This document shows positions 46,500-64,000 of a DNA stretch of 64,000 bases, in pieces; position 1 is the first letter of the stretch, and every line of letters starts with the position of its first letter. Made by a program: the position numbers and the translations under genes. Source of the stretch: a virus; the IMG/VR virus record IMGVR_UViG_3300032323_002905, positions 1 to 64,000 of that record, one strand, 5' to 3'. The notes beneath the pieces are model-generated. The model worked only from the letters and a program-made list of their open reading frames with translations, ran no database searches and was not told the origin of the DNA.

Positions 46500-48176
46500 T
46501 TAGATAGTGTTTAATCCTTGGATGTAGATCTTACCATAAAATTCTGGTCTTAACATTTTCTTAGCGTAACGAGTCAATAGACCTTTACGTGGTGTAAATG
46601 TATCTGGGTCGTACACAAGTGGAGTCATAATTAATGGAACATATGGAGCAAATACAGCACCAGCTTCTAAGAATTGTGAACCTCTGTAACCTAATAACAT
46701 GATGTTTTCAGTCATGTAAGGGTTTTTGTAAACTGTGTAACGGCCATTTAATTGACCTGCTTTTTGTACACCGAAAGCGTATTCCATTTGAGCAGCATCA
46801 CCATTGTTAGTAGAAGCAAATCCTGGGATTGATTCTAATACTGTAGCTACAGTTGGAGATGTAACAATAAAGTTAGCACCACCTCTTAAAGTTAATTGGT
46901 GAATTTTGTTGCTTAATTTTTGGATTTTAGTTCCTAAAGTTTGGAACCATTGGCCTTGTGTGTTGTAGAACGCTGAACCACCAGTTGAGAAAGTACCTGT
47001 ACCTGGATTGTAAACGTTGTTGTTGATTGTTGACCAATATTCAGTACCTGCTGCTGCGTCTTCGATCAACATATCTAAGATTTCAAGGTCAATTTCCATT
47101 GAAATGTACTCAGACATGATGTTTGTTACTTCAGCTTCAGCATCGATATTTTGGTAAGCAGCTAAATCTTGTGAGAATTCAGGTGTCCATACTGCTTTCA
47201 ATTTCTTGGTTTTAGCAGTGATGGCTTGTGATTGCATTTTCACGTTGATCTCAGGGATAACGATAGTAGTGTTTGATGCCGCGTTTGGAACTGCGAATGA
47301 AGACGAATCTTCAAAATCACCTACATTATACGGACTCATTTGAGTAGCTTTGTTATACTCAATTGTATAAGCACCTGCTGGAGCGATTGTAGCTGTTGAA
47401 GCACTTACAAAGAATGTAATTGTATTGTTAGTGTAATCAAATGTAGTAAATTGTTGTAAGTTGTTAGCAGCTGTAATTGCTGAACCTGACAAGATAATGA
47501 AACCTCTAACAGCATCCATATCAAAGTTAGGGATGTTTGTAGAAGCACTAACTAAAGTAATTGCTTTGATTTGACCTGCAGCAACTGAAGCTGAGTAATC
47601 TGAATCAAAGTTAGTTGTAGCTAATGTACCTGAAACAATAAGTGAACCAGTTTGGATTGTAATAGCTGATGATGAGAATTGGTTGGTAGAGTAAGTAAAA
47701 CGACCTGTTCCGTACAAACCACCTGCTGGAGCTGGAGTAGCAAACGGGAATTCACCTGTTGCGTTTCTGTTACCATACAATGAACCACCTACTGAAAATG
47801 GATCTTTAGCTGTTCCGTATTGGAAATCTAAGAAGAACACAAGACCTGAAGGCATTGACATTGGCTGAACTGAAACAAATTCTTTTGCTGCAATTTGAGC
47901 AAATACTTTACGTACTAAAGGTAAAGCGATACCAGCCCAGTTTTCTGATTGACCAACAGAGAATGAACCTGCTGATGAACCACCACCTGTATCTGATTGT
48001 TCCATAACTAATTGCTTAGCTTGGTTTTCTAATAATAAAGACATGTTGTTTGCCTCTACATTTGTTAAGCCTTCTAATAGACCCGTTTTGTTCCATTTAG
48101 AAGACAATTTAGCTGCATCGCTTTGGAGTGATTTCCAAGGATTAGCTGATTCTAATAATGATTGAATTGTACTCAT
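46500..48176 (-). CDS. gp23: Major capsid protein (T4 gp23-like)
   Basis: 558 aa. After a ~60-residue N-terminal propeptide it has NWAGIALPLVRKVFAQIAAK, EFVSVQPMSMPSGLVFFLDF and FGT/YGT-type segments, SQAITAKTKKLKAVWTPEFS, and NFIVTSPTVATVLES near the C-terminus, all standard for gp23 (HK97 fold). Possible gp21 cleavage points after LLE are at residues 9, 35 and 50. A Gly/Ser linker SDTGGGSSAGSFS follows at about 61-73. It packs the capsid shell. Codon use here is richer in G/C than in its neighbours, as expected for a highly expressed gene. Confidence 0.95.
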   Translation of the reverse strand: MSTIQSLLESANPWKSLQSDAAKLSSKWNKTGLLEGLTNVEANNMSLLLENQAKQLVMEQSDTGGGSSAGSFSVGQSENWAGIALPLVRKVFAQIAAKEFVSVQPMSMPSGLVFFLDFQYGTAKDPFSVGGSLYGNRNATGEFPFATPAPAGGLYGTGRFTYSTNQFSSSAITIQTGSLIVSGTLATTNFDSDYSASVAAGQIKAITLVSASTNIPNFDMDAVRGFIILSGSAITAANNLQQFTTFDYTNNTITFFVSASTATIAPAGAYTIEYNKATQMSPYNVGDFEDSSSFAVPNAASNTTIVIPEINVKMQSQAITAKTKKLKAVWTPEFSQDLAAYQNIDAEAEVTNIMSEYISMEIDLEILDMLIEDAAAGTEYWSTINNNVYNPGTGTFSTGGSAFYNTQGQWFQTLGTKIQKLSNKIHQLTLRGGANFIVTSPTVATVLESIPGFASTNNGDAAQMEYAFGVQKAGQLNGRYTVYKNPYMTENIMLLGYRGSQFLEAGAVFAPYVPLIMTPLVYDPDTFTPRKGLLTRYAKKMLRPEFYGKIYIQGLNTI

Positions 48177-48201
48177 TTTTTTAAAATTTTTTTTAAATTG
48201 A

Positions 48202-49272
48202 TTATTTAATAATTCCTGCTATTTTTTGCATTCTTGTGAATGTGTCATTAACTTCTACAATAGATGTTTTTGCTGTTGGCATAATACCTGTTGTTTTAGA
48301 TGCTAAACTAGTTTTTAATGATTCGTTAACATGTGATTTAGAAGTTTCTTTTAAACCTTCTGATAATGTTTCGAATACTAATTTAGTTTCTTTTACTGTT
48401 GATGCTTTATCAAATGCATTTAAAACCTTTACTTTTTGTGATTCGGTTAAGTTTTTAGCTTTGAAAATTTTGTTAGTGTAAAGTAATTTTGCATTTAACA
48501 AATTAACTTCATTGATGTCAGTTCTCATAGTAGCAATAGTTGACATAGCTTCTTCTAACTCTTTTTTAAGTTTAGTTATTTCTTCTTTGTCTTTTTTGTC
48601 TTCTTTGTCACCTTTTTTCTTAGCTTCATCTAATTCGATTTCAGCTAAAATTTCATCAATTGAAATTTCTTCTTCTTCACTTTCCATTTCTTCGCCTTCT
48701 TCTTCACCTTCCATGCCTTCACCAGCTTCTAATTCACCAGCTTCAACCATGTCTTTAATTACGTCCTCAATAAATGATTTTAATTCTTCTTCAGTCATGT
48801 CTTCGATGTTGATTTCTTCTTCAGTTTCAACTTCTTCTTCACCTTCAGCTTCATTAAGATCTTTTTTGTCTTCGTCTTCTTTAGCCTCATTCATGTCTTC
48901 ATCTTTTGATTCTTCCATGTCTGCTTCTAACTCAGCTAATAATTCATCAAGATTAAGTTCATCTAATTCTTCTTCAGCTACATTACCATGAGCTGTTGGA
49001 CCTTTAGGGTCATTAATTAAACCTTCTTCTTCTTTGACTTCTTTGTAGCCCATTAAGTTTTCTTGTTCTTTAGAATACATTTCTTCCATATCTTCCATTT
49101 CTGCTTCTTCCATATCCATTTCTTCCATTTCTGCAAGTTTAGCTGATAGCATAGATTTTAATTGTGGAGTAAAATGTTCTTCAAGAGCAGCTTTTGCGCT
49201 TGCTATTGCTGTTTCTTTAACAACTTTAGCATCTTCGATTGCTTCTTTAAGCAAATCTCTGTTTTTACTCAT
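48202..49272 (-). CDS. gp22: Prohead scaffold/core protein (T4 gp22-like)
   Basis: 356 aa from the chosen start MSKNRDLLKEAIEDAK; an upstream ATG at 49302 would add ten residues (MYFPNKILGQ). It is highly acidic and helical with long Glu/Asp runs, as in T4 gp22, which fills the prohead and is then cut up by gp21. The extreme C-terminus reads FTRMQKIAGIIK, matching the N-terminal tag of two other proteins here. This suggests the tag is a shared scaffold or shell-docking motif. It lies between the protease and the capsid genes, the T4 order 21-22-23. Confidence 0.85.
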   Translation of the reverse strand: MSKNRDLLKEAIEDAKVVKETAIASAKAALEEHFTPQLKSMLSAKLAEMEEMDMEEAEMEDMEEMYSKEQENLMGYKEVKEEEGLINDPKGPTAHGNVAEEELDELNLDELLAELEADMEESKDEDMNEAKEDEDKKDLNEAEGEEEVETEEEINIEDMTEEELKSFIEDVIKDMVEAGELEAGEGMEGEEEGEEMESEEEEISIDEILAEIELDEAKKKGDKEDKKDKEEITKLKKELEEAMSTIATMRTDINEVNLLNAKLLYTNKIFKAKNLTESQKVKVLNAFDKASTVKETKLVFETLSEGLKETSKSHVNESLKTSLASKTTGIMPTAKTSIVEVNDTFTRMQKIAGIIK

Positions 49273-49325
49273 TTGTCCTAAAATTTTGTTTGGGAAATAC
49301 ACTTATTTGAAGTGTAATAGAATTG

Positions 49326-49338
49326 TTAATTATAGATA
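49326..49338 (-). promoter_or_regulatory. Class B variant for the scaffold-capsid operon
   Basis: TATCTATAATTAA on the coding strand, 53 bases before the gp22 ATG, one base different from TATTTATAATTAA. It lies next to a 7-bp inverted repeat (ATACTGC/GCAGTAT, 49336-49363). Confidence 0.4.
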
Positions 49339-49417
49339 CTGCAAATGCGATTGCGGGCAGTATATTCTAATATACATATGTCCGGATTTTCTTAAAATAC
49401 ACAGAAGTAAAAAAGAA

Positions 49418-49440
49418 ATGCCTCTTTTTTAGAGAGGCAT
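49418..49440 (-). terminator. Intrinsic terminator after the prohead protease gene
   Basis: ATGCCTCT and AGAGGCAT form an 8-bp stem with a 7-base loop; TTTCTTTTTT follows on the minus strand. It separates gp21 from the more heavily expressed gp22-gp23. Confidence 0.8.
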
Positions 49441-49473
49441 CGGTCTAATAATACTATTAATAGAGGGGTTTAT

Positions 49474-50079
49474 TTAAAATAAAGGACATGACCCGTTAGC
49501 ACATAAAATATCAGTAATAATTGAATTAATTTTACCATATTGATTTGTACTAGGAATATATGATTCATTTAAGTTAGTTGGTTGCATCCATGAACCTGGG
49601 TTAGAAGGTGTTGAAACAAAATCCCAACATAGTAATTCAAAGTCTTCTTGTACTTCCATTACATTACCTCTTTGTTCTAATGAACCCATTCCTCTTGATG
49701 ATACACCTACTGTGATGCCACTTTCAATTAATGCTTTTAAAATGTTGCCTGATGGAGTAGGTAAAATTTCAATTAAACCCATTACATTATCTCCATCCCA
49801 CCAGCATTTTTTAATATTATGTGAAACATTTTTTAAGTTGATAACTGAAGAATCCGGATGATCTAATTCGCCTAATGCTCTGTTTTCACGAACAGATTCC
49901 ATATAGCGATTCATTTCACGTTCCCATAATTCTTTAGCGTAATATCTACCATTACCGTTTTTTACTTCGGCGGTAGCTAATACACCTTCTACTAATATGT
50001 TACCTCCAGGATTAGTTCCTTCAGTTAACCTAACAGCTTTAGGAGAAAATAATTGTGTTTCAATTAATACTTGTCTCAT
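49474..50079 (-). CDS. gp21: Prohead core protease (T4 gp21-like)
   Basis: 201 aa, a serine protease of the gp21 family that digests the scaffold and trims capsid proteins after (L/I)xE. Motifs: VEGVLATAEVKNGNGRYYAK, the catalytic His in GELDHPD (H74), and the catalytic Ser in GVSSRGMGS (S127 or S128). The acidic partner is likely in the DFELLCWDFVSTPS region. It carries LIET near its own N-terminus, a possible self-cleavage point. It is encoded just upstream of its substrate, the scaffold. Confidence 0.93.
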   Translation of the reverse strand: MRQVLIETQLFSPKAVRLTEGTNPGGNILVEGVLATAEVKNGNGRYYAKELWEREMNRYMESVRENRALGELDHPDSSVINLKNVSHNIKKCWWDGDNVMGLIEILPTPSGNILKALIESGITVGVSSRGMGSLEQRGNVMEVQEDFELLCWDFVSTPSNPGSWMQPTNLNESYIPSTNQYGKINSIITDILCANGSCPLF

Positions 50080-50083
50080 TATT

Positions 50084-50902
50084 TTATTTTTTATCTAAAT
50101 CACCGTATCCACTTGATTTATATTTACCTTTAGGGGTAATTGTTTCTTTTTCAGTTTTAAATCCTACTCCTTTAGTTCCAAACATAGCATTTTTAGCATA
50201 ATAGTTTATGTCTTTAACCATGTTTTTAAGTACAATTTGTTTTAATTCATCAACTGATTTGTCTTTATTTTTAGGATCTTTCATTTCAGCATAATAACCA
50301 TTTAAGAAAGAGGTACCATAAACATTATCAATATTTTTCTTATCTTCATTATCATATTGATGAGCTAAAGCATCAGCTACTTCTTTAGATGGTTTTTCAA
50401 ACTCATCATAATCACCATATGTTTTTTTCTTTTTAACACCAATAACTTCTGATAAAGTTTCTTCTTTAACTGGTCTTAACAACATTGGTTTAGTTACAAA
50501 TAACTCTCTACCATCTTCTGTTTCGCCTTTAATTTGTTTAATTTTACCATTTACTTTATCAACTAAAGTAATAGTTACTTTATCATCACCTATCATAGCT
50601 TCATCACCAACTTTAACTTTAGAACCAAATGATAAATCACTCATTGGAGTTCCTAATATGTTAGCTTCTTCATTTGTGTTTTCTCTAAATATTTCTAACC
50701 ATGATGGTGATGGTTTATGATTAATAAATCCACCAATACCTTCACTTAAAATACTTTTTGATTTAAGTACTTTAACAGTTGTATTGTAATCAGAATATTG
50801 ATTGATATATTCTGGAAATAAAGTTTTAGCTTGTTTTAAGAAATGATCTTTATTTCCTTTTCCTTCTTTAATAAGAATGTATTGTTCTTGTAATGTTTTC
50901 AT
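50084..50902 (-). CDS. Putative internal head protein, 272 aa
   Basis: No named family. The N-terminus carries LQEQ (4-7) and LIKEG (10-14), two (L/I)xE motifs like those of T4 internal head proteins. The middle has a small beta domain (LSFGSKVKVGDEAMIGDDKV, TITLVDKVNGKIKQIKGE). The C-terminus is Lys-rich. It lies among head genes between the tandem 87-aa proteins and the protease, so a core or packaged protein is likely. Confidence 0.65.
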   Translation of the reverse strand: MKTLQEQYILIKEGKGNKDHFLKQAKTLFPEYINQYSDYNTTVKVLKSKSILSEGIGGFINHKPSPSWLEIFRENTNEEANILGTPMSDLSFGSKVKVGDEAMIGDDKVTITLVDKVNGKIKQIKGETEDGRELFVTKPMLLRPVKEETLSEVIGVKKKKTYGDYDEFEKPSKEVADALAHQYDNEDKKNIDNVYGTSFLNGYYAEMKDPKNKDKSVDELKQIVLKNMVKDINYYAKNAMFGTKGVGFKTEKETITPKGKYKSSGYGDLDKK

Positions 50903-50915
50903 TTATAATGAGTTA

Positions 50916-51179
50916 TTATGTGTAAAATAAAACGTTAGCACTAGCAGCTGCTAATGAAGCACTAGTTACGAATATAGGATAAGTTGCTCCTTCAAGAAAT
51001 CTTAATGTAGCTGGTGAACCAGATATACATAATTCTACTCCATTTGCGTCTTTAAGACCTGTAAAAACAGCATATGATCCTGCTGTGGTTGCTGCTACTG
51101 TGAATCCAGCAAAAGAACCAGTCACTGATTGACCTTGTCTTATAGATACTACTGTTGGGTTTGCGGGTATATTTGCCAT
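50916..51179 (-). CDS. Small virion protein, tandem paralogue B, 87 aa
   Basis: MANIPANPTVVSIRQGQSVT, ending SASLAAASANVLFYT. It shares more than half its residues with the neighbouring 87-aa protein, including the blocks LKDANGVEL, SGSP, EG and YPIFVTSASL. It is a single beta-sandwich by appearance. A tandem duplicate in the head cluster is most likely a capsid decoration or vertex protein that diverged after duplication. The gap to its twin is 11 bases. Confidence 0.7.
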   Translation of the reverse strand: MANIPANPTVVSIRQGQSVTGSFAGFTVAATTAGSYAVFTGLKDANGVELCISGSPATLRFLEGATYPIFVTSASLAAASANVLFYT

Positions 51180-51190
51180 TATTATAATTT

Positions 51191-51454
51191 TTATGTAAAG
51201 AAAACGACGTTAGCACTTGTAGCATCTAATGAGGCACTAGTAACAAATATTGGATATACAACACCTTCTTTAAGATATAAAGCTGCTGGTGATCCTGAAA
51301 CTACTAACTCTACTCCATTAGCATCTTTAAGACTTGTAAAGTGAATATAATTATTTACAGTATTTGAACATCCAACAAAACCAGCAAATGAGCCTGTTAT
51401 TGTTTGTCCTGCTTGTCTTGATACAGCGGTTGCATTAGCTGGTATATTTGCCAT
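51191..51454 (-). CDS. Small virion protein, tandem paralogue A, 87 aa
   Basis: MANIPANATAVSRQAGQTIT, ending SASLDATSANVVFFT. It is the same length as its twin at 50916-51179 and similar throughout; differences cluster in the middle (GFVGCSNTVNNYIHFTS against GFTVAATTAGSYAVFTG). One base separates it from the 177-aa gene upstream. The two copies may occupy different positions on the capsid or form a hetero-oligomer. Confidence 0.7.
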   Translation of the reverse strand: MANIPANATAVSRQAGQTITGSFAGFVGCSNTVNNYIHFTSLKDANGVELVVSGSPAALYLKEGVVYPIFVTSASLDATSANVVFFT

Positions 51455-51455
51455 A

Positions 51456-51989
51456 TTAGTTTTTAAATAAGCTTATTAAGTCGTTTAAATAATCGTTTGC
51501 TAAATCAGTACCATATAACACACTAAAATTAGGTTTATTTTTATAATAATCTAATGTTCTTTGTTTTGCGTTTTGTAATAATGGTAATAATTCGTTTAAT
51601 TTTTGTTCTAAAGTATCAAATCCTTCTAATCTAGATTTGATAAATGTTTTTAATTCTGGTTTATCTATGTTTAAAGAATCAATATAAGCGTCAACATCTA
51701 ATTGTGCTTCGTTTACATTCTCTTTCCACATTTGTTTAACTATAATTCCTTTTGCCTGTTTATTCAGTTTTTTTTGATTAACAGGTTTGTAACCTAGTTT
51801 ATAATAATAATTATTTGTTGTACCTTTAGAATTAGTATTTTTTTTATAAGCAGCATCTGTTCCTGCTTTTGTTGCTGTTTGTGGCCCTTCACCTGGACTA
51901 AAAGCTCCAGCTGATGCTCCACCTCCTGTACCTGATTCTTCAGATATTTTTTTTAATGTATCTTTAATAATACTTTTTAACTTATCCAT
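51456..51989 (-). CDS. Putative prohead core protein, 177 aa
   Basis: The N-terminal helix carries ISE (15-17), an (L/I)xE site, followed by SGTGGGASAGAFSPGEG. That Gly/Ser linker closely resembles SDTGGGSSAGSFSVGQS just ahead of the capsid protein core. The rest is Lys-rich, then helical (KPELKTFIKSRLEGFDTLEQ). It lies in the head cluster where T4 has genes 67 and 68. It may be a core protein cut by gp21 at the same kind of site as the capsid. It overlaps the upstream gene by eight bases. Confidence 0.65.
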   Translation of the reverse strand: MDKLKSIIKDTLKKISEESGTGGGASAGAFSPGEGPQTATKAGTDAAYKKNTNSKGTTNNYYYKLGYKPVNQKKLNKQAKGIIVKQMWKENVNEAQLDVDAYIDSLNIDKPELKTFIKSRLEGFDTLEQKLNELLPLLQNAKQRTLDYYKNKPNFSVLYGTDLANDYLNDLISLFKN

Positions 51990-52836
51990 TTACTTTACGT
52001 AATTCTTCTAATAATTCATAGTAATGAAGTAAATTAGTCATATCATCATTACTAATTTTATCATTTTTATCTAATGTAACTAAAATATTAGACACCTCAT
52101 TAATTTTAATTTGAGTTGTCTTGTCTTTAACTTTTTTATTTAATTTAGTTAAGTCAGATTTAATTTCTGTTATTTTAGTATTGTAAAAATCTTTTAATTT
52201 AGATGGATTATCAACACTGTTGATAAATTCTTTTAATACTGATTTTTGTCCTTCATTTAAATTAGCATATTTAGAATTAAATTTTTCTAATAATGATCTA
52301 TAAGTTAACATACGAATATCTTTATCGTATGACTTAAATTCTTCCATTAATGTATCTTTAGCAACTGTTGTAATTGGTGCTGAAGTTAGATATTCTAATA
52401 TAATTAATTTATTTGAGATTACTTGATTGGGTTCTGGTTGGTTAACACCATCATACATTTCTAATAATGTATAGAACGCGGCTTGGGTTTTGTAGTTAGG
52501 TAATTTAGTTTTGAAAAATTCATCAACATCATAATTTGCTTTAATTTCTTTAATTAAATTATATTTTTGACGACGTAATGCTGATTTGTTTAAGTATTTA
52601 GCACTTTCTAATAAAGTATTGATAATAATATCAGCTTTACCTTCGCTTAACTTAATGTTGTTTAACAATGTTTCGTATAACTTATACTCTTTTCCTAACT
52701 CTGTTTTAACAAAGTGTTTTTTTAAAATAGTTGCTGCCTTTGAGTCTACACCTGACAATGTATCAGACGTAATTTGTCTGACTAAAAGTTCAAATAAAAT
52801 GCCAGTATTCTTGTATTTTGAATGTTTAACAATCAT
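51982..52836 (-). CDS. Conserved hypothetical head-cluster protein, 284 aa
   Basis: It starts VKHSKYKNTGILFELLVRQI, a sequence I associate with a protein found beside the portal in marine T4-like phages; no function is assigned. It looks all-helical with several Leu-rich stretches and a Lys-rich C-terminal third, a plausible core or assembly protein. It follows the portal gene behind a class B element and overlaps the 177-aa gene by eight bases. Confidence 0.7.
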   Translation of the reverse strand: MIVKHSKYKNTGILFELLVRQITSDTLSGVDSKAATILKKHFVKTELGKEYKLYETLLNNIKLSEGKADIIINTLLESAKYLNKSALRRQKYNLIKEIKANYDVDEFFKTKLPNYKTQAAFYTLLEMYDGVNQPEPNQVISNKLIILEYLTSAPITTVAKDTLMEEFKSYDKDIRMLTYRSLLEKFNSKYANLNEGQKSVLKEFINSVDNPSKLKDFYNTKITEIKSDLTKLNKKVKDKTTQIKINEVSNILVTLDKNDKISNDDMTNLLHYYELLEELRKVNG

Positions 52837-52853
52837 TCCTAAAGTGTTTTATT

Positions 52854-52862
52854 ATAAATATA
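52854..52862 (-). promoter_or_regulatory. Class B (late-type) element for the head-core operon
   Basis: TATATTTATAATAAA on the coding strand, 17 bases before the 284-aa gene. Full consensus match. Confidence 0.5.
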
Positions 52863-52871
52863 TAAGGATTA

Positions 52872-54749
52872 TTACTCTCTAATTTGGGATTCATCTAATA
52901 GCGAATCTCCTGGTTTTTCTTGACTAAATACTAATTTTTTATCAACTTGTTCAAACAAACGTTTATTTCTTGCAAAAGCTGATTTAGCGTTTTCTAAAGC
53001 AAACGGTTTAGATGTTGACTTACCATATCCTGGTTGGTCATCAGATTTCATATCTTTAACACCTAATCTATCACGACCTAACGCGCTGTCTTGTGTATTA
53101 ATATTAGATACTTTTTCTTTTGGACGACCTAATTGTGTGTCATTATTATATCCTGGTGGCAATTCACCTTCTGGTCCACCGTTTTTACTATATAAACTAG
53201 CTAAATCATGTGGTGTACCGTATGATTTACCTGTTTCTACTGGATCATTACCTTCTTCTCTAATTTGAGCGATTCTAAATTCACGTTTTGCATCTTCAAT
53301 CATCATATCTCTATATTCATCATATGAATCTTCAGAGAATCTGAATACATTGTCATAAACCCAATCAGTAGGCATTAATTTAGTTTCAATAATATTTTTA
53401 GCTAAATCAACTTTTTCCTTCATTAACATGATACGTTCTTGATCGTATATAATAGACGGTGTAGTTAATGATAACTCAAAGTTAGTTAATTCTTCGTTAG
53501 TATAACCTTGAACATATAAATGTACTAATGCAATTTTATATAATTCTGATAATGTAATACGTTGAATACGATCAATTGTACGAGCAAAACGAATATCTTC
53601 TGCTGCTAATGTTGCTTTACCTTGTAAGTCTTTATCATAACCTAAAAATGCTTTAGGTACTTTTAATGCTGCAAATAACTTATCTCTTAAATATGCGACA
53701 TCTTGAATACCATCATAATCTAAACCTTTAGTATTTTCAATACGTGTTGCTTGGTCATTACCTCTTACTGGAATGTAAAAATCTTCTAGTAAGTTTTGCA
53801 TGTTATATTTAACATTATATTCACCTGTCTTTTGATCCATTAACGGAGTACGTTTCATTGAACTAATAGTTTTCTGCATAAATGCTTCAACTTCATTAGG
53901 TGGAATAGAACCAACATTAATAAAGAAAGTACGTTTTTCTGGTGAACGAACTACACGATGGATTAACATCGCATCTTCCATTAAAGCGTATTGTTTATAT
54001 AAACGACGAGCTGGTTCTAGATAAGATCTACCATATGGTAAATAGTTAACATCTGTAATTAATCTAAAGTGAGCCACCTCATAATTTTCAAAGAAAATAC
54101 CTGGTTCGTTTTGACGACCTAAATTAGGTGTGTTATAATAACCATCACCTGATAAAAATCCTTCTGGTCTAAATTGGAAACGAACTGAAGCTGGTTTGTC
54201 TTTATCATAATTTTCTTGTCTTTCAATATGATATGCTGTATATGGAATAACATTATATACACCAAATTTTTCAGCGATTTCTAATCTTAAGAAAAAGTCA
54301 CCATATTTACACATTTGACGAATCCAAGACCATAAATTAAATTCAATGTTTAATACATCATAAAATAAATTATATAAAATTCTTTGAATATTTTCGTCTG
54401 ATGAACGAATAGATAATACTTCACCCATATCATCTTTTAATGTAGATTCATCAGCTACAATATCTAATGCTGAACCCACAATTGCATCCTGATCCATGAT
54501 ATCATAGTCTGAATATAATTGGGTACGTAAGTATTGGTAATTTAAATTTAATTGTTGTCCATAAAGTGATGATGCATTAGTTGAATAAATTCTATTGTAT
54601 CTATCCATTAATGAGTTAGTAGCGATATCACCAGTTTGTTGAATGGTGTTAACGTCCATCACTTTTAATTGATTACCACCCTGATTTCTCATCACTACAT
54701 CAGTAGAGAACAGTCGTTGTAATCGTGAAAATAAGCCTTTGTCTGCCAT
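52872..54749 (-). CDS. gp20: Portal vertex protein (T4 gp20-like)
   Basis: 625 aa; T4 gp20 has 524. SLMDRYNRIYSTNASSLYGQ, SDYDIMDQDAIVGSALDIVA, GDFFLRLEIAEKFGVYNVIP and NTKGLDYDGIQDVAYLRDKL followed by FAALKVPKAFLGYDKDLQGK form the standard portal order of T4-like phages. The dodecameric portal is the DNA gate and the docking site for terminase. The C-terminal ~130 residues are polar and probably flexible (GPEGELPPGYNNDTQLG). A class B element precedes it. Confidence 0.94.
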   Translation of the reverse strand: MADKGLFSRLQRLFSTDVVMRNQGGNQLKVMDVNTIQQTGDIATNSLMDRYNRIYSTNASSLYGQQLNLNYQYLRTQLYSDYDIMDQDAIVGSALDIVADESTLKDDMGEVLSIRSSDENIQRILYNLFYDVLNIEFNLWSWIRQMCKYGDFFLRLEIAEKFGVYNVIPYTAYHIERQENYDKDKPASVRFQFRPEGFLSGDGYYNTPNLGRQNEPGIFFENYEVAHFRLITDVNYLPYGRSYLEPARRLYKQYALMEDAMLIHRVVRSPEKRTFFINVGSIPPNEVEAFMQKTISSMKRTPLMDQKTGEYNVKYNMQNLLEDFYIPVRGNDQATRIENTKGLDYDGIQDVAYLRDKLFAALKVPKAFLGYDKDLQGKATLAAEDIRFARTIDRIQRITLSELYKIALVHLYVQGYTNEELTNFELSLTTPSIIYDQERIMLMKEKVDLAKNIIETKLMPTDWVYDNVFRFSEDSYDEYRDMMIEDAKREFRIAQIREEGNDPVETGKSYGTPHDLASLYSKNGGPEGELPPGYNNDTQLGRPKEKVSNINTQDSALGRDRLGVKDMKSDDQPGYGKSTSKPFALENAKSAFARNKRLFEQVDKKLVFSQEKPGDSLLDESQIRE

Positions 54750-56740: not shown

Positions 56741-57017
56741 TGTATTTAGTTTTATATAAATCGGCTTTATGTTTTAAACCTGATAATTTAATTTTATCTT
56801 CTGCTACTTGTTTTTTATAAACAGTAGCAACTGAATCTAATTGGGTGATTTTAATTTTAGTAGAGTCAATATTTGCTTGTAATGAATCTATTTTATTATT
56901 TAAAGCTTCATTTTCTTTACCCAAACGGAAATTAGGATTAATGTTAAGAATATTTACAATTAATAACACTAATCCTACGTATCCTAGAAACTTTATAATT
57001 TCTTTATACCACATCAA
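56667..57017 (-). CDS. Putative inner-membrane spanin (Rz-like), 116 aa
   Basis: The N-terminal transmembrane segment IKFLGYVGLVLLIVNILNI lies at residues ~8-26, followed by a periplasmic coiled coil (ENEALNNKIDSLQANIDSTK, and similar). This is the layout of i-spanins. It overlaps the next gene by 74 bases and the previous one by 14. No holin or endolysin is obvious nearby. The lysis role is inferred from topology and gene overlap, not from sequence similarity. Confidence 0.6.
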   Translation of the reverse strand: MMWYKEIIKFLGYVGLVLLIVNILNINPNFRLGKENEALNNKIDSLQANIDSTKIKITQLDSVATVYKKQVAEDKIKLSGLKHKADLYKTKYNEEHNRITNLSNDALVSEFTNAFD

Positions 57018-57840
57018 ATTCGAATTTATCTTTTAATGCTTCTAATTCTTTCTTTTGTGCTGTTTTTTCTTTTAATTTAGCAATGATATTTGCTTTTTCT
57101 TCACCTTCAGCATTTTTATATTCACCAGCTAATTCTTTCATTTCTTTTTCTACTTGAATTAAACCTTTTAATACTTTATCTAATTTAGAAGTACGTTTAG
57201 TTAATTTAGTAGCTGCTTTAGCTGCTTGTTTATCAATATCTGATTCTTCTGGTGCTGAATCTTCGTCACCTGCTTTATAGTAGTCATCTGCTTCTTCTTC
57301 ACCTGTCTCCATATCTTTTTCTACCGCTTTAACTGCTTTTTCTATTTTTTCTTTAGATGGTTTTGCAGTAGCTGCTTTAGGTGCTGTTGGTATTCCAGCC
57401 ATTGATACTACACCTTTATCTTTTAACATACCCATTAATTCTCTGAATTTAGGATTGTTAATACTAGCTGTATCAGCTAAACCAAATTCTTTAGCTACAT
57501 CAGCAACTGACATTTCACCTTTATCTAAAAGATATTCTAATGCTTTTTTAACATTACCTTTAGCTTTTTCGATTAATGAAGCTAATTCATCTTTCATTTC
57601 TTTATTTAAGATATAAGATACTTTAGCACGAGCCATTTCATCTAATTCTTCTTCAACAAAATCAACAGGATTTGATGGTGTCCCTAATGAAGGATTTTTT
57701 GTTTTAGTTTTAGCAGTATTAATTAAAGTCCGTTTTTGATCAGGAGTCAATGTATTTGGATTAGGTACATCAATTGTATCTTCAGATAATGTAGCGATAA
57801 TTTCCTCACGTATAAAAGATTTAAATTCTTTGATTTTCAT
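57004..57840 (-). CDS. Putative capsid-targeted protein with winged-helix-like segment, 278 aa
   Basis: The N-terminus KIKEFKSFIREEIIATLSED carries IKE, IRE and LSE, three (L/I)xE sites in an amphipathic helix like T4 capsid-targeting peptides. Residues ~105-145 (KGEMSVADVAKEFGLADTAS then NPKFRELMGMLKDKGVVS) look like a winged-helix DNA-binding fold. The C-terminal half is Lys/Glu-rich coiled coil. Such a protein could be packed with the DNA. A class B late element lies 14 bases upstream. Confidence 0.65.
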   Translation of the reverse strand: MKIKEFKSFIREEIIATLSEDTIDVPNPNTLTPDQKRTLINTAKTKTKNPSLGTPSNPVDFVEEELDEMARAKVSYILNKEMKDELASLIEKAKGNVKKALEYLLDKGEMSVADVAKEFGLADTASINNPKFRELMGMLKDKGVVSMAGIPTAPKAATAKPSKEKIEKAVKAVEKDMETGEEEADDYYKAGDEDSAPEESDIDKQAAKAATKLTKRTSKLDKVLKGLIQVEKEMKELAGEYKNAEGEEKANIIAKLKEKTAQKKELEALKDKFEFDVV

Positions 57841-57854
57841 GTTATATTTTTCTG

Positions 57855-57863
57855 ATAAATATT
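57855..57863 (-). promoter_or_regulatory. Class B (late-type) element for the 278-aa gene
   Basis: AATATTTATCAGAAA on the coding strand, 14 bases before the ATG; weaker after the core. Confidence 0.4.
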
Positions 57864-58392: not shown

Positions 58393-58444
58393 ATATTATA
58401 ATGTATATAAAGTCTCTAACAAGACCAAGTTGTAATTAATTTGT

Positions 58445-58696
58445 TTAAACTCTAGCACCTGCTGCTTTACCGGCTGGTGATTTGAACCATGGTAAACCTT
58501 CACGTTGTTTACAATGTTCTTTCCATGATTTTTCAGTGTACTTAATACCATATAAATAATACTCACGTTTTTTTCTTTCACCTTGAGGTATTAACGCTGG
58601 TCCATCCCAGTTATGATACTTACCTTCCCAAACGTATGCGATTGTTCCGTCTGCTTTAGTTAATTTTTTAGTTGGTTCAAATTTTTTATTTTCCAT
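58445..58696 (-). CDS. Small MORN-like hypothetical protein, 83 aa
   Basis: TIAYVWEGKYHNWDGPALIP, then REYYLYGIKYTEKSWKEHCK, then GLPWFKSPAG. The G-x-x-H-N-x-D-G-P-A pattern followed by YYLYG resembles small phage and bacterial proteins of the MORN/antitoxin-repeat style. Function unknown. A class A promoter box ends six bases before the ATG, predicting a near-leaderless early transcript. A competing frame at 58396-58581 lacks any such signature. Confidence 0.7.
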   Translation of the reverse strand: MENKKFEPTKKLTKADGTIAYVWEGKYHNWDGPALIPQGERKKREYYLYGIKYTEKSWKEHCKQREGLPWFKSPAGKAAGARV

Positions 58697-58701
58697 ATAA
58701 T

Positions 58702-58733
58702 TAAATATAACATCAAATCAGCGGGAGGTCAAA
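58702..58733 (-). promoter_or_regulatory. Class A promoter for the 83-aa gene
   Basis: TTTG (58733-58730, in AGTTTGAC), 20 bases, TATATTTA (58709-58702). The predicted leader is about 2 nt. Confidence 0.65.
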
Positions 58734-58734
58734 C

Positions 58735-59430
58735 TTATTTGTACAATTTTAATGTTCCACTACCTATTTCATAATTAGATAATTCATATATTACATATGA
58801 TTGGTTTTCAATCCAATCACCTGTGTTGATATATCTAATACCATCTATAGTTTTGTCTATTGGTGTATGAATATGTCCACAAATAACAGTATGGCAGTTT
58901 CGTTTTTTAGCTTGTCTAACCATTTCCTGTTCAAAATCAATCATAAATGAAACAGCAGCTTTAACATTATCTTTTAAATACTTAGATAAACTTGTTTTCT
59001 TATTAATTTTTTTTAATAGTCTATCAATAACAATAGCAGCATCATAACCAATTGAACCTAACATACCTAACCAATGCATTTTAACAATACCATCATATTT
59101 GTCTCCATGACAAAACCAAATACCACCTTCAGTAAATTCATCTACTATTTTAATATTACCTAATTGCATAGGTGTATATTTTCTTAAGAATTCATCATGA
59201 TTACCTGATATCCAAATAATTTCTTTTTCTTTAGATATTTTAAATAAGTTACGTATTACTCTGTTATGATCCTCACTAAACTTCTTATATCGTTGAAATA
59301 ACCAACCATCAATAATATCGCCTACTAATATTAAGCGATCATATTCCTCAGTTTTAAGTAGATTTATGATGGCTTTAGTATTACAACCTTTAGAACCTAT
59401 ATGTAGGTCAGATATTACTAATGTTTTCAT
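58735..59430 (-). CDS. LpxH-like metallophosphoesterase
   Basis: 231 aa, a calcineurin-type phosphoesterase. The five metal-site motifs are SDLH (7-10), VGDIID (36-41), GNHDE (76-80), CHGDKYD (107-113) and GHIH (185-188), in the order of LpxH (UDP-diacylglucosamine pyrophosphohydrolase) and related YbbF-type enzymes. LpxH acts in lipid A synthesis, so a role in changing the host envelope is possible. Its stop is close to the small-gene promoter and its start is one base after the stop of the FAD oxidoreductase. Confidence 0.82.
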   Translation of the reverse strand: MKTLVISDLHIGSKGCNTKAIINLLKTEEYDRLILVGDIIDGWLFQRYKKFSEDHNRVIRNLFKISKEKEIIWISGNHDEFLRKYTPMQLGNIKIVDEFTEGGIWFCHGDKYDGIVKMHWLGMLGSIGYDAAIVIDRLLKKINKKTSLSKYLKDNVKAAVSFMIDFEQEMVRQAKKRNCHTVICGHIHTPIDKTIDGIRYINTGDWIENQSYVIYELSNYEIGSGTLKLYK

Positions 59431-59431
59431 A

Positions 59432-60745
59432 TTATTTTAATAACGATTCAGCAACATATATTCCATGAGCACCACTAACTGTTATACCTCTTGCACTTAA
59501 TGCGTCTCCAACAAAATGTACATTTGGGTATTTAGTTAATGCTAAATTAGTATAATCAACTAATGGTTCTGGTGATAAATACTTTACTTCAGGAATATAT
59601 ATACCCCAATCATCACCTAATGTTGGGAATACTTTTTTCATATCTACTATAAAATCTTCAATATATTTAAAATATCCTTCCATAACTGGTTTAACAACAT
59701 TAGTTAATGTATCTAAACTAATTGGAGTTGAACTTACTACATTTTTTTCTGATGTATCAGATGGTGTACGAGATGGACTATAATACAAACCAGTTCCATT
59801 TGATTGTAATTTATTTACAACATCCCTAGACCAAGTAAATGGATCTTCAATATCCTTAATTTCCATAATAATACCAAAATTAGTCATTCCATTTAGATAT
59901 TTAGGATCTTTTTTAGCGTGACCATTATAAGTAACATCACCATATGTTTCTTCTACAGCAACATAAGCTGCATTATTATTTGTACAAAACGAACGTAATG
60001 AAACACCTTTATCATCAAATTTTCTATATAACTTAAAGTCATATGAAATGTCAATTAGTTTTTGGAAGTGGTGTTGTGGTGCCTCGAACCTACAGCCTAT
60101 TTGAACTGATTTAGGTTCGTCTGGGAGTTCATATTGGTTGGCTAATTCTTGAGCAAAATCAATACCTGATTTACCTACAGCAAAAATAAGTTCATCATAT
60201 GATAATACTTTTACTATCTCACTAATTGGAGGACCTTCATACTTTAATTCATTAATATCAAAATCTATACTTGTAACTTTAGATTTCCAAATAAATTTAA
60301 CACCTTTCTCAACTAAATAATCGTACCAATTTTTAGCAATTTCAGATAGATAATCTGTACCTACGTGCCATACAGGAAATAAACGTAAACCAAAATATGG
60401 TTTAATAAAATCAGGTTCAGCTTCTGGATTTGAACATTGTACTTCTTCAGGTTTAGGATGGAAACGTTTAAAATTGGTAATAACTTGATCCATTAATTCC
60501 ATTGCTTTTTCCTCACCTGTATACTTAGATAACTGACCACCAATAGCTGTATGGTAAGTTAGTTTGCCGTCTGACCAACCTCCCGCACCTAACATTCCTG
60601 TCATTACTTCTTCAGGTAAGCGGTTATATGGATCTTTACCCATATCAATAATAGTAATTAAATTACCATCATACCCATTATCTACTAATTTAGTTGCAGC
60701 ATTAATGCCTGCTACTCCGGCTCCAACGATTACAATTTTTTTCAT
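59432..60745 (-). CDS. FAD-dependent oxidoreductase (COG2509-like)
   Basis: 437 aa. The N-terminal dinucleotide-binding motif IVGAGVAGINAATKLV (about 5-20) and the C-terminal FVGDALSARGITVSGAHG, which closes the FAD site, mark a flavoprotein dehydrogenase. The middle segments GAGGWSDGKLTYHTAIGG and IGCRFEAPQHHF resemble the COG2509 group. The substrate is unknown. Such enzymes are rare in phages. It is the first gene of a two-gene unit with the LpxH-like enzyme, behind a class A promoter with a near-leaderless start. Confidence 0.8.
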   Translation of the reverse strand: MKKIVIVGAGVAGINAATKLVDNGYDGNLITIIDMGKDPYNRLPEEVMTGMLGAGGWSDGKLTYHTAIGGQLSKYTGEEKAMELMDQVITNFKRFHPKPEEVQCSNPEAEPDFIKPYFGLRLFPVWHVGTDYLSEIAKNWYDYLVEKGVKFIWKSKVTSIDFDINELKYEGPPISEIVKVLSYDELIFAVGKSGIDFAQELANQYELPDEPKSVQIGCRFEAPQHHFQKLIDISYDFKLYRKFDDKGVSLRSFCTNNNAAYVAVEETYGDVTYNGHAKKDPKYLNGMTNFGIIMEIKDIEDPFTWSRDVVNKLQSNGTGLYYSPSRTPSDTSEKNVVSSTPISLDTLTNVVKPVMEGYFKYIEDFIVDMKKVFPTLGDDWGIYIPEVKYLSPEPLVDYTNLALTKYPNVHFVGDALSARGITVSGAHGIYVAESLLK

Positions 60746-60750
60746 ATATT

Positions 60751-60782
60751 TTAATATAATTAATTTTTATTTAAAGGCCAAA
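60751..60782 (-). promoter_or_regulatory. Class A promoter of the FAD oxidoreductase-LpxH-like operon
   Basis: TTTG (60782-60779, in AGTTTGGCC), 20 bases, TATATTAA (60758-60751). The predicted leader is about 2 nt. A hairpin lies just upstream, as at the gp32 promoter. Confidence 0.7.
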
Positions 60783-60787
60783 CTAAG

Positions 60788-60816
60788 GTGGCCCACCTTT
60801 TTTTAGGGTGAGCCAC
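60788..60816 (-). terminator. Hairpin insulating the oxidoreductase promoter
   Basis: GTGGC.CACC and GGTG.GCCAC form a 9-bp stem with one mismatch around an A/T-rich loop. It ends five bases before the -33 box and follows the 156-aa gene. There is no U-tract on the minus strand. Confidence 0.5.
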
Positions 60817-60877
60817 TACTTCACAATATTTTTATTAGTCGACAGGCAATGAATCTGTCTATATGTTAAAAAATTTT

Positions 60878-61348
60878 TTAGATTTTTTTAAATGCTTCAC
60901 CTTCTCTATATTGAGGGTAATATGTTTTTCTACCATCTACATCTGAAATTTCCCATGCTGGAATATTATTAGGTTCTACATTTCCATTATACATAAAATT
61001 TCCTTCTAATTTAGTTGCTTTTACAATTTTACCTGGGATGAATTTTTGTTTCATTCTATCAAATACTTCAACTTTATCACCTGGTTTTACAGTTGGCCCT
61101 GATGCTTGTAACATATCAAAATATGCTTCACTATCTTCTAAGTATTCTTGATGTTCTTCATTACCAAATTCTTCGTCAGGATCAACTTCATTTTTTACCA
61201 TATCCATAACTTTTTCTCTATTCCATCCTGGGTTAGCAGACATCATACTTTGGTAAAATGAGTTTGATTCTTTATTGATTTGGTTTTCAGTAATAATACC
61301 CGCTAATTTTTGCATGCGAGCTAATTGTTCGTTTAATATTGGTTTCAT
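60878..61348 (-). CDS. Putative capsid-targeted cargo protein, 156 aa
   Basis: The N-terminus carries LNEQ and RMQKLAGIITENQIN, almost identical to the 118-aa protein at 12117-12473, though the two bodies differ. LNE and ITE fit gp21 cleavage sites. After the tag come SFYQSMMSANPGWNREKVMD and an SH3-like segment with KPGDKVEVFDRMKQKFIPGK and VDGRKTYYPQYREGE. It overlaps the 86-aa gene by four bases. I infer a protein packed in the head and trimmed there. Confidence 0.7.
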   Translation of the reverse strand: MKPILNEQLARMQKLAGIITENQINKESNSFYQSMMSANPGWNREKVMDMVKNEVDPDEEFGNEEHQEYLEDSEAYFDMLQASGPTVKPGDKVEVFDRMKQKFIPGKIVKATKLEGNFMYNGNVEPNNIPAWEISDVDGRKTYYPQYREGEAFKKI

Positions 61349-61605
61349 TTTTTATATATCTTTAATTTTAAAGTACCTGTACCTTTAATGGCTCTATGCC
61401 ATTCATGTCTTGGTATAAATATTGGTTGGTTTATAGAAGTTGGCAATTGGTTTTCAAGTTGTAATTGCCAATTTGTTTTACCTATTACTTCAACTGTTCT
61501 ATCTTCATCATCACGATGCCACATTAGTTCAATTGGGTCTATATTTTCGTTAAATTCACGAATAATATATTTGTCTGTAACTTCTATATCTTTATATGGC
61601 CTCAT
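61345..61605 (-). CDS. Hypothetical protein, 86 aa, possible cupin-like fold
   Basis: KYIIREFNENIDPIELMWHR, then IGKTNWQLQLENQLPTSINQ, PIFIPRHEWHRAIKGTGTLK. The His-containing HRDD and IPRHEWHRAIKGTG segments look like the two halves of a small cupin-type beta barrel with possible metal-binding His residues. Similar short proteins occur in marine phages. Function unknown. It overlaps its neighbours by 14 and 4 bases. Confidence 0.65.
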   Translation of the reverse strand: MRPYKDIEVTDKYIIREFNENIDPIELMWHRDDEDRTVEVIGKTNWQLQLENQLPTSINQPIFIPRHEWHRAIKGTGTLKLKIYKK

Positions 61606-62209
61606 TCATATCATAATAAAATGAATCTCCATCTTCAGTTACCCATCTATCAGATTGGTTTTCAACTGATGGTAATTCAGTGTCTACTTTAAATTGTTTT
61701 AAATCTTCAGGTAATTTTTTAGTTACCCAATTTGAATCTTTCCAAAATAATCTATTATTTGGTTGACACAATAAATATCCATCATCTGCCTTAAATATAT
61801 GTCCACATTTATAGTCTGATGGTTCATCACTATATGGATTATCATACCAATCTACAGTAAACATATAAGTTCCCCAAACTTTGCTTCCGTCTCTTAAGAC
61901 AATTTGAGCTCTATGATATAATAAAAAATCATATTCTATAACTGATACATTAACTGAAAAACAATCCCATAATTGTTTAAAATTAAATGGAATATCATTT
62001 TCTGGAATTTTAGTGTAGATTTCAGATATTGGAACTCTATTTCTAACCATTCCATCATCAGTCATAACATGAAATGTTAATATTTTTCCGGAACATGATT
62101 GTAGTCCAAAAACATAAACATTTAAAAATACTTCTGAATCTTTTTTATTTTTAGTAAAATATGATTTACGAACTAAAGCTTTAAAACTTGGAATATCCGC
62201 GTTTAACAT
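61592..62209 (-). CDS. Conserved hypothetical protein, 205 aa
   Basis: A mainly beta protein rich in Trp, Tyr and Phe (PFNFKQLWDCFSVNVSVIEY, KVWGTYMFTVDWYDN, CGHIFKADDGYLLCQPNNRL). I have the impression of similar proteins in marine T4-like phages but can give no function. It overlaps the cupin-like gene by 14 bases. The superoxide dismutase gene ends 15 bases upstream of its start. Confidence 0.65.
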   Translation of the reverse strand: MLNADIPSFKALVRKSYFTKNKKDSEVFLNVYVFGLQSCSGKILTFHVMTDDGMVRNRVPISEIYTKIPENDIPFNFKQLWDCFSVNVSVIEYDFLLYHRAQIVLRDGSKVWGTYMFTVDWYDNPYSDEPSDYKCGHIFKADDGYLLCQPNNRLFWKDSNWVTKKLPEDLKQFKVDTELPSVENQSDRWVTEDGDSFYYDMNEAI

Positions 62210-62224
62210 ATTATTTTTTATTAA

Positions 62225-62881
62225 TTATTTATTTTGTATTTCTAATCTCTCTTCCGCGGTTTTGTAATCTACTACTCTAAAAAAATCATTAATATAATTT
62301 TTTCTTTGAGATTTGTGTTTTAAATAATAAGCATGTTCCCAAACATCCATAGCAATTAAAATTTTACCTTTAAAATCTTTATTAAGATATGGATTATCTT
62401 GATTAGCATAAGATTCTATAACTAATTTATTTCCTTTTTGGATTAAAAATACCCAACCTGAACCAAATTGTTTTAAACCAGCTTCTTTAAATTTTTCTTT
62501 AAATTCGGAAAATGAGTTAAAGTTTTTTTCTAATAGGTTTTTAAAATTTGTTGAAGGTGCTTTGTAATCAGGTGTCATATTTTCAAAATACAAAATATGA
62601 TTATAAAAACCACCACCATTATTTCTAATAATATCATTTTTAGGATATTTACCTAATATAATTTGGATAGCTTGAATTTGATCTTCGGCATTTACTTTAA
62701 TAGATTTTTTATCTAATTCATCATTAAGTTTATCTGTGTATCCTTTAAAATGTTTATCAAAATGCTCTTCCATAGTTTCCTTATCTATGTAAGGTTGAAG
62801 AGAAGTGTATGAATAACTTAATTTAGGTACTTTAAATTTTGTATCTTTTGCTTCAGTTAGTAATTGAATAAGATTAATCAT
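62225..62881 (-). CDS. Fe/Mn superoxide dismutase with N-terminal (L/I)xE extension
   Basis: 218 aa. All four metal ligands of Fe/Mn SOD can be placed: H40 in MEEHFDKHFKGY, H95 in FYNHILYF, and D179 and H183 in AMDVWEHAYY. GSGWVFLI is the usual core strand. The extra N-terminus (MINLIQLLTEAKDTKF) holds LTE (8-10), the gp21-type cleavage motif, in an amphipathic helix. This suggests the enzyme is packed in the capsid and trimmed. It would remove superoxide during or right after DNA entry. It overlaps the upstream gene by eight bases. Confidence 0.88.
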   Translation of the reverse strand: MINLIQLLTEAKDTKFKVPKLSYSYTSLQPYIDKETMEEHFDKHFKGYTDKLNDELDKKSIKVNAEDQIQAIQIILGKYPKNDIIRNNGGGFYNHILYFENMTPDYKAPSTNFKNLLEKNFNSFSEFKEKFKEAGLKQFGSGWVFLIQKGNKLVIESYANQDNPYLNKDFKGKILIAMDVWEHAYYLKHKSQRKNYINDFFRVVDYKTAEERLEIQNK

Positions 62882-63524
62882 TTTTCATTTTTTTAAATGG
62901 GGCATATCCTGAACCATATGGTGCTGATCTGCCAGATTGTGGATCTGATGTTTCTTGTGTTAAATCTCTATAGTTTTGAGATGGAGGAAATGTTCCCATC
63001 TTTTTTTTAGCTTGTTCCTTAGTTTTATAAGGTCCAAATTCTTGTCTAATACCTGGAGCAAATGGATTATCTTGAATATAATAGTATTTGTCTCCTCTTT
63101 TTTCAATAGCTCTATATCTACTTTGACCTCCAAAACCATTTTTTTCATTTACATCTTTAAATTCTTTTAATTTATTCAAGCGTTCTGTTTTCTTTTTAGA
63201 TGCTTCTTTTTTAGCTGTGATGTATTCTAATCCTTTTTTTAAGCGTGCTTTTACTTCAGGATCTTTTGCTTTACCATAAGCGGCTCTAACACGTTGATGA
63301 ATTAAATTAATAATTTGTGATTGTCTTTTATGTGGTTTTGATTGAAATGATGATTTAGATAAAGTATCTTTTATATCTTGAACAGTTTTAAATTTTATAC
63401 TAACAGTATCATTTGGATTTTCATCAGTATATAAACGACGACCTGATCCTTTAGGTTTTTTACCTGTACCTACTTTAGGATCACCTTCAGTTATTTCTTT
63501 TAATATATCAACTAACTTAATCAT
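62874..63524 (-). CDS. DUF5872-like basic protein with capsid-targeting-like N-terminus, 216 aa
   Basis: The N-terminus IKLVDILKEITEG carries LKE and ITE, two (L/I)xE sites. Next comes GTGKKPKGSGRRLYTDENPN, then DTVSIKFKTVQDIKDTLSKS, the pattern of the DUF5872 family seen in viruses and bacteria. The middle is Lys/Arg-rich and the C-terminus polar (SDPQSGRSAPYGSGYAPF). A basic DNA-binding protein packed with the genome, like T4 internal proteins, is plausible. Its stop overlaps the SOD start. Confidence 0.7.
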   Translation of the reverse strand: MIKLVDILKEITEGDPKVGTGKKPKGSGRRLYTDENPNDTVSIKFKTVQDIKDTLSKSSFQSKPHKRQSQIINLIHQRVRAAYGKAKDPEVKARLKKGLEYITAKKEASKKKTERLNKLKEFKDVNEKNGFGGQSRYRAIEKRGDKYYYIQDNPFAPGIRQEFGPYKTKEQAKKKMGTFPPSQNYRDLTQETSDPQSGRSAPYGSGYAPFKKMKND

Positions 63525-63892
63525 TATGATATAGTCCAGGTTTTAACATCACGTGCTTTTTCTTTTAATTTAAAAGTAACTACACCACGAATTGATTTAA
63601 TATCTTTTTCTACTTTAGTTACAATATTAGCTGTATCATTTAATCCTTTAGGGAATGGTGATGGATCAATTTTAATATCTAAATAAGCGTATTCATATTT
63701 TGATGATGGATTACCTGATTGATATTCTTTATTATTAACAATAGTAACACCTAAAACAGCTCTAACGTCAGATAAAATGTATTTCATTTTAGCAACTTGA
63801 GGATTGATAACTAATACACCACCAATGGCTAATACCTTTTTTGATGATGCGTATTCTTCTTTAATAAGTTGTTTTAGTTCTGATTTTTTCAT
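63524..63892 (-). CDS. Hypothetical protein with capsid-targeting-like N-terminus, 122 aa
   Basis: The start KKSELKQLIKEEYASSKK is an amphipathic helix with IKE at 10-12, typical of small putative internal proteins in marine T4-like phages. After it comes a compact alpha/beta domain (VLAIGGVLVINPQVAKMKYI, YAYLDIKIDPSPFPKG) of unknown function, ending VTFKLKEKARDVKTWTIS. It overlaps the next gene by one base and seems to start the SOD group together with the partial gene upstream. Confidence 0.7.
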   Translation of the reverse strand: MKKSELKQLIKEEYASSKKVLAIGGVLVINPQVAKMKYILSDVRAVLGVTIVNNKEYQSGNPSSKYEYAYLDIKIDPSPFPKGLNDTANIVTKVEKDIKSIRGVVTFKLKEKARDVKTWTIS

Positions 63893-63894
63893 AA

Positions 63895-64000
63895 TTATTT
63901 TAAATCATCTATTAAATTCTGCATCTCTTCATCTGCAGGTCCACGATAACTAAAAGTATATGTTCCTTTTAAGCTTTTATCATCATAATAATTATTATTA
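63895..64000 (-). CDS. Partial hypothetical protein (C-terminal end)
   Basis: The last 34 codons of a gene that begins beyond the window end: YYDDKSLKGTYTFSYRGPAD, then EEMQNLIDDLK and a stop. Two bases separate its stop from the next ATG, so it is in the same operon. There is too little sequence to name a family. Confidence 0.55.
   Translation of the reverse strand, partial: NNNYYDDKSLKGTYTFSYRGPADEEMQNLIDDLK

Follow-up and report, generated by a model that had tools for sequence, protein, structure and literature searches.

Introduction

In bacteriophage T4, different proteins (IPI, IPII, IPIII and Alt) are targeted to the capsid by a short, removable N-terminal peptide, with (L/I)xE sites and a gp21-type protease. 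Here we describe what is probably a capsid-targeting system of the T4 type in a 64,000-nucleotide stretch of virus DNA (the window; positions 1 to 64,000 of IMG/VR record IMGVR_UViG_3300032323_002905, a record of 89,452 bases from a T4-like phage). One of its signals would copy the C-terminal segment of the phage's own scaffold protein and be removed by a gp21-like protease.

Because removable head-targeting peptides are known from T4, the kind of system is not new. The gene order of portal, core, protease, scaffold and capsid is also that of T4. In contrast, the T4 peptides read MKTYQEFIAEA or MKTFKEF rather than RMQKLAGI, the T4 scaffold ends VYAKVASRF, and here one signal equals the scaffold C-terminus and several peptide families occur. 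By eye, no homology of the tag to MKTYQEFIAEA was found; since T4 ipI, ipII and ipIII start differently, we regard the system as T4-like in its working, and membership of the same peptide family is not supported. Encapsulin cargo-loading peptides offer a further parallel, in that a short peptide puts unrelated enzymes into a protein shell; unlike the peptides proposed here, they are not known to be copied from a scaffold or removed by a head protease.

The relevant part of a T4 review states only that the targeting peptides have affinity for the core (PMC9026906). Phage P1 also packages proteins in its head (DarA, Hdf), DarA being cut by the head protease, and the polyvalent proteins are large, multi-domain, thought to be injected and in some cases equipped with zeta-like kinases (PMC12810830, PMC5512222). 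The passages of these sources on such proteins name no scaffold-tail tag, and superoxide dismutase has no occurrence in PMC5512222. In phiKZ-type giant phages (SPN3US), cleavage after Glu removes N-terminal propeptides from many head proteins; there, however, the motif is AxE, the propeptides are mostly 111-254 residues long (two are of 20 and 24), and no scaffold copy is named in the part of the source that covers them (PMC10052503).

A tag shared by unrelated proteins and the scaffold

Open reading frames (ORFs) were called mechanically, and only duplicates with identical starts were removed. A sequence-only reading of the window had pointed to two otherwise unrelated proteins with a common N-terminal tag that recurs at the end of the scaffold. 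All three genes lie where that reading placed them and carry the tag as it described:

12117-12473, minus strand: N-tagged protein of 118 residues; begins MKKQLNEQFIRMQKLAGIITENQINE; tag MKKQLNEQFIRMQKLAGIITE at 12411-12473
60878-61348, minus strand: N-tagged protein of 156 residues; begins MKPILNEQLARMQKLAGIITENQINK; tag MKPILNEQLARMQKLAGIITE at 61286-61348
48202-49302, minus strand: scaffold (gp22 position); ends IVEVNDTFTRMQKIAGIIK (also given as FTRMQKIAGIIK); C-terminal RMQKIAGIIK at 48205-48234, with IVE ahead of this segment at 48253-48261
49474-50079, minus strand: gp21-type prohead protease, presumed to cut after (L/I)xE (PHROG 207, head maturation protease, E = 3.7e-57)

The bodies of the two N-tagged proteins fall into separate clusters, and neither has a Pfam match at E 0.1; the scaffold has no PHROG or Pfam match. 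A third N-terminal copy lies just outside the window, at 67866-68747 of the record, and the three share the consensus LNEQ-x-x-RMQKLAGII-(T/K)E. Flavobacterium phage immuto likewise has two N-tagged proteins, at 25061 and 111675 of its record.

Six further proteins had been singled out for an (L/I)xE close to the N-terminus, and all six have it. In this genome, 26 of 41 minus-strand ORFs at 46.5-75.5 kb have a [LI]xE that ends in residues 7-26, vs 10 of 50 ORFs elsewhere (Fisher p = 3.4e-5), the left limit of this region coming from the sequence-only reading and the right one having been set after the genes were seen. The enrichment is more than chance.

The tag in related phages

We compared stretches fetched from related phages (loci coded L followed by a number). 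Eighty of these are the loci listed by the capsid-protein search alone, which found at least that many, and they hold 1262 proteins. The ORF upstream of the capsid gene is whole in 77, and all 77 end in variants of P-I-x-E-x6-R-(M/W/F)-x-x-L-A-(G/F/N); of the other three loci, two start too close to the capsid gene and one has a split capsid ORF. In a fixed-pattern search of the 1262 proteins, the RMQKLAG-like core stood at the C-terminus 76 times, at the N-terminus four times and internally in no case. Among 45 aligned scaffolds of related phages, the C-terminal R and A are invariant (45/45) and G is kept in 43; in the IxE ahead of the end, I is found in 41 and E in 42.

An AlphaFold2 model of the scaffold (43 rows, 355 residues) places a short helix at residues 342-350 (block pLDDT 80), preceded by residues 322-335 at pLDDT below 50. 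As modelled, the scaffold tail may thus be a small motif, a short helix, on a flexible tether. Given a mean pLDDT of 69 and a pTM of 0.29, we make no tertiary claim. In the distant Rhodothermus phage RM378, the protein upstream of the capsid gene (L261:9199-10047) has the C-terminus ERIKRLAGL, and the scaffold end may therefore be old enough to include this phage. Separately, the immuto scaffold (L006:15627-16868) contains a block of about 60 residues, EGFEQWLDSVSAQMDKFGKNNPTIQAIEKAV..., twice.

Profiles built from N-terminal tags alone do find scaffold C-termini, a comparison the sequence-only reading had called for. A profile of N-termini with 22 rows found matches in 39 of 41 records; by our reading, 31 of the places listed are scaffold ends, 15 of them confirmed from fetched loci. 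A local N-tag profile gave 65 N-terminal, 106 C-terminal (nearly all scaffolds) and 4 internal matches, and none on reversed proteins at the same limit. The loci selected by tag were picked for containing it, so that these totals, which cover the matches listed, inform on position and not on frequency.

Family A, with the signal L(N/S)E-x3-RMQKLAGI, comprises 59 N-tagged proteins in 46 clusters among the matches listed, with at least one protein entered twice (L168:1 and L215:613). The search pattern for this family contains no I-x-E or L-x-E; an (L/I)xE site follows the tag within residues 17-28 in 51 of the 59, vs 493 of 2516 other proteins. The cut-type site comes after the tag at N-termini and before it at C-termini, where E stands exactly six residues ahead of R in 128 of 163 cases; a site is present in 0.35 of 14-residue control windows. 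Five non-scaffold proteins carry the tag at the C-terminus (L101:10419, L103:12686, L159:9121, L169:47, L218:1839), four of them with INE or MNE ahead of it.

We also asked with which phages the tag travels. In 33 N-tag records, a part of all records with the tag, a homologue of this phage's capsid protein is present in 11 and one of its terminase in 9 more; a further 2 have a homologue of its sheath-sized protein 24141-26141 and 3 a homologue of its baseplate-type protein. The N-terminal tag of the 60878 protein matched only the four immuto records among 50,697 phage records, a weak test with 28 residues. Common occurrence in non-head proteins of unrelated phages would have counted against a head role, and the tag was not found in unrelated phages in these searches. 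As it also equals the conserved C-terminus of the scaffold, the comparison supports a tag that belongs to head assembly.

Other peptide families and swapping

Two more N-terminal families were recognized. Family B, KKSELxxxIKEE, has 86 proteins in 27 clusters; family D, FDLKKFLxENKLT, has 11 proteins in 10 clusters. Their site counts (84/86 and 11/11) are partly circular, since the search patterns themselves hold I-x-E or L-x-E. A shorter type, MIKLxDILxE, starts 93 of 2610 proteins, some capsid and terminase proteins included, vs 64 of 13,353 internal methionines. Pfam searches covered 105 of the 156 members of families A, B and D, with three members from each of the three largest clusters and without one duplicate. 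They matched six families at E < 0.001, each in a single member.

That these peptides do the same work is indicated most strongly by mature proteins that bear different ones. One protein begins with D in one phage but with A in a second (56% identity over 62 residues, E = 2e-24), and another has A or B in different phages (60% over 78 residues, E = 3e-36); a second D/A swap is weaker (32% over 121 residues, E = 2e-10). By these comparisons, at least three peptide families look interchangeable.

Family B also has 12 internal matches at iE < 0.01, several bracketed by E sites. Five are in homologues, recognized by a shared N-terminus, of the protein at 50084, the window's own copy not being among the matches. 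Two other origins were tried and rejected. One was the scaffold N-terminus as the model for family B; the top 130 N-termini held no intact scaffold and one truncated fragment, at rank 117. The other was the N-terminus of the capsid protein as the model for MIKLxDILxE; 8 bits or more were reached by 0 of 154 capsid proteins, vs 86 of 2403 other N-termini. Elsewhere in the record, L004:7784-8428 (record 70784-71428) has a family B peptide, MTKKELKEVIREQIKNLTK, at its C-terminus, a peptide that is N-terminal elsewhere.

Candidate cargo enzymes and fusions

One of the six proteins with an (L/I)xE near the start is a recognizable enzyme:

62225-62881, minus strand: Fe/Mn superoxide dismutase (PF02777, E = 1.4e-30; PF00081, E = 6.2e-20); peptide MINLIQLLTE at 62852-62881

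The superoxide dismutase domain starts at residue 13-15, after MINLIQLLTE, and the best solved relative aligns from residue 13. The alignment keeps H, H, D and H, which we take to be the metal ligands. Across 18 superoxide dismutase loci, 11 genes are stand-alone with such a peptide and 5 lie inside an ORF of 1014-1614 residues; the remaining 2 loci belong to a single contig, with a distant copy (28% identity). For a zeta-toxin-like P-loop kinase (record 73663-74418), 26 of the 32 relatives fetched were inspected, and every one of them has the peptide, an internal methionine being accepted as start in five. Three nearby enzymes (an FAD oxidoreductase, a phosphoesterase and the kinase at 57862) have no such peptide, and their domains start at residues 1-3, which provides an internal contrast.

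Proteins that have separate genes here (superoxide dismutase, the 62874-63524 protein, the kinase and a nucleotidase-like domain) occur as successive modules in large ORFs of other phages. A [LI]xE lies near 28 of 46 module starts in such ORFs, vs 0.336 of random windows (p = 1.4e-4), although the 46 junctions include core proteins and imprecise boundaries. The motif flanks superoxide dismutase on both sides in all four fusions tested of the five (the fifth being L277; background 0.17-0.22), and two of the five, L273 and L277, have no targeting peptide at the called start.

Four giant ORFs of 1253-1614 residues (L276:4186-9030, L274:3071-6832, L275:1485-5405, L273:1431-5663) contain a nucleotidyltransferase-like start, HExxH-type stretches and superoxide dismutase, with a plastocyanin-like domain in L274 and a zeta-like kinase and a nucleotidase-like domain in L276 as extra modules. 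They look like polyproteins of the cargo set, and cutting by the prohead protease is predicted. The uncultured huge phage LR756508 (L010:27697-33576) encodes several similar proteins one after another, which have MRLKEILLE-type N-termini and a YRGT motif. These are possibly ADP-ribosyltransferase-like, as is T4 Alt; Pfam gave no match for the two tested.

Head genes and candidate cargo

The genes named in the sequence-only reading are all on the minus strand. By capsid protein, the closest named relatives are immuto (56% identity), Microcystis phage Mel-JY01 (48%) and LR756508 (47%). The remaining features of the region are:

46500-48176, minus strand: major capsid protein gp23 (PHROG 138, E = 1.6e-69)
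50084-50902, minus strand: probable prohead core protein adjoining gp21, assigned by position and homologues; N-terminus MKTLQEQYILIKEG
51456-51989, minus strand: probable core or internal protein; family B N-terminus MDKLKSIIKDTLKKISEE
52872-54749, minus strand: portal gp20 (PHROG 213, E = 1.1e-55)
57004-57840, minus strand: candidate cargo; family B N-terminus MKIKEFKSFIREEIIATLSE
62874-63524, minus strand: candidate cargo; N-terminus MIKLVDILKEITEG; same module inside large fusions of other phages
63524-63892, minus strand: candidate cargo; family B N-terminus MKKSELKQLIKEE

The capsid protein (residues 62-78) and the core-type protein 51456-51989 (residues 20-35) have a glycine-serine stretch in common (SDTGGGSSAGSFSVGQSE and SGTGGGASAGAFSPGEGP), in each case directly after a candidate (L/I/V)xE site.

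Discussion

What is read directly from the DNA is that cargo candidates and scaffold share a segment placed at protein ends, that the sites are conserved, that peptides are swapped, that a protease gene is present and that extra residues lie ahead of the superoxide dismutase fold. From them we infer packaging, cleavage, a binding partner and delivery into the host, as follows. A cargo gene would encode a short peptide, nearly always N-terminal, by which the protein is kept in the core of the prohead. The gp21-like protease, which would digest the scaffold as well as the tags, would cut after (L/I)xE, leaving the mature protein in the head without its peptide. The family A signal would be a copy of the scaffold's conserved C-terminal segment, which has its own IxE site ahead of it, and the cargo would most likely take the scaffold tail's binding site, whether this lies on the shell's inner face or on the core, until digestion of the core sets it free. 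The other families (KKSELxxxIKEE, FDLKKFLxENKLT and MIKLxDILxE) would do the same job, and the first two can replace RMQKLAGI on the same protein. Cargo would probably be injected with the DNA, as the part of the T4 review on this subject describes (PMC9026906).

Several observations weigh against this scheme. Eight of the 33 N-tag records have none of the four marker genes (seven are at most 15.4 kb long and one is 41 kb), 8 of the 59 family A proteins have no site in residues 17-28, and the local profile found the tag at four internal places. Co-variation of tag and scaffold tail within genomes, which would have backed the scheme strongly, is not significant (12 records; mean identity 5.96/8 vs 5.73 when shuffled, p = 0.085), and scaffolds with RWQ pair with cargo that has RMQ. 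A search for a virion proteome of immuto phages found none. The scaffolds of T4, S-RIM12, S-CAM8 and nt-1 lack the RMQKLAG end, so mimicry is not general for T4-like phages.

As to where the tag binds, the sequence-only reading had it dock on the scaffold. Binding to the scaffold itself, for example by tail-to-tail packing in the core, rather than competition with the scaffold tail for the shell, is possible, if doubtful: the scaffold carries the same segment, and T4 internal-protein propeptides have affinity for the core according to the relevant part of PMC9026906. However, nothing here separates scaffold binding from shell binding, and the absent co-variation is neutral. That gp21 processes the peptides while their role lies in folding or in recruiting a chaperone, and not in targeting, is decidedly unlikely. 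Chaperonin recruitment is among the T4 propeptide functions named in the part of PMC10052503 on propeptides, yet such a role leaves the identity with the scaffold tail and the C-terminal tags unexplained.

The peptide might also have no function, if recombination has merely spread a 5' gene end that encodes the shared N-terminus. In this genome, the three N-tags have identical DNA over 20 bases of the core and may therefore be recent copies. Across the fetched loci, however, the 32 N-type occurrences of RMQKLAGI are encoded by 27 different DNA sequences and the 102 C-type occurrences by 50, which argues that the peptide itself is what is kept. This synonymous divergence already largely excludes spread by recombination. 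The scaffold copy at a 3' end, the near-fixed distance of the site from the tag and the substitution of unrelated peptides on the same protein also speak against it, and we consider it very improbable indeed. A further suggestion is that some (L/I)xE helices, chiefly those of the short MxxLxxLLxE type, are ordinary amphipathic N-termini with no common role. The motif is loose, as its background among other proteins in residues 17-28 shows; against this, the short type is concentrated at true N-termini relative to internal methionines, and the peptide is kept on the kinase relatives inspected and on 11 of the 18 superoxide dismutase loci. We therefore hold it improbable.

Head targeting by removable peptides, one of them copied from the scaffold tail, thus remains our preferred explanation. 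The comparisons support the proposal of the sequence-only reading that a set of proteins, including an enzyme (superoxide dismutase), would carry such peptides. The system is wider than that reading saw: several peptide families look interchangeable, a few proteins other than the scaffold bear the tag at the C-terminus, and multi-domain fusions occur. Tentatively, a broader rule can be proposed in which targeting peptides copy assembly segments of core proteins, RMQKLAGI that of the scaffold C-terminus and KKSELxxxIKEE one inside the core protein adjoining gp21. A kit of redox and nucleotide enzymes (superoxide dismutase, plastocyanin-like domain, zeta-like kinase, nucleotidyltransferase, nucleotidase) might thus be loaded and injected, in the form of separate tagged proteins or of one polyprotein that the prohead protease cuts.

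A search of the open-access literature, judged mainly by titles, found no description of a targeting peptide equal to the scaffold C-terminus, and none of a tailed phage with superoxide dismutase as cargo in its head. A signal equal to the scaffold's tail points to a concrete binding site, testable with one peptide, and the tag could be a packaging handle for phage heads. It also offers a sequence rule for listing the head contents of aquatic phages known mostly from metagenomes. Finally, it predicts that some of these phages would carry superoxide dismutase into the host cell at infection.

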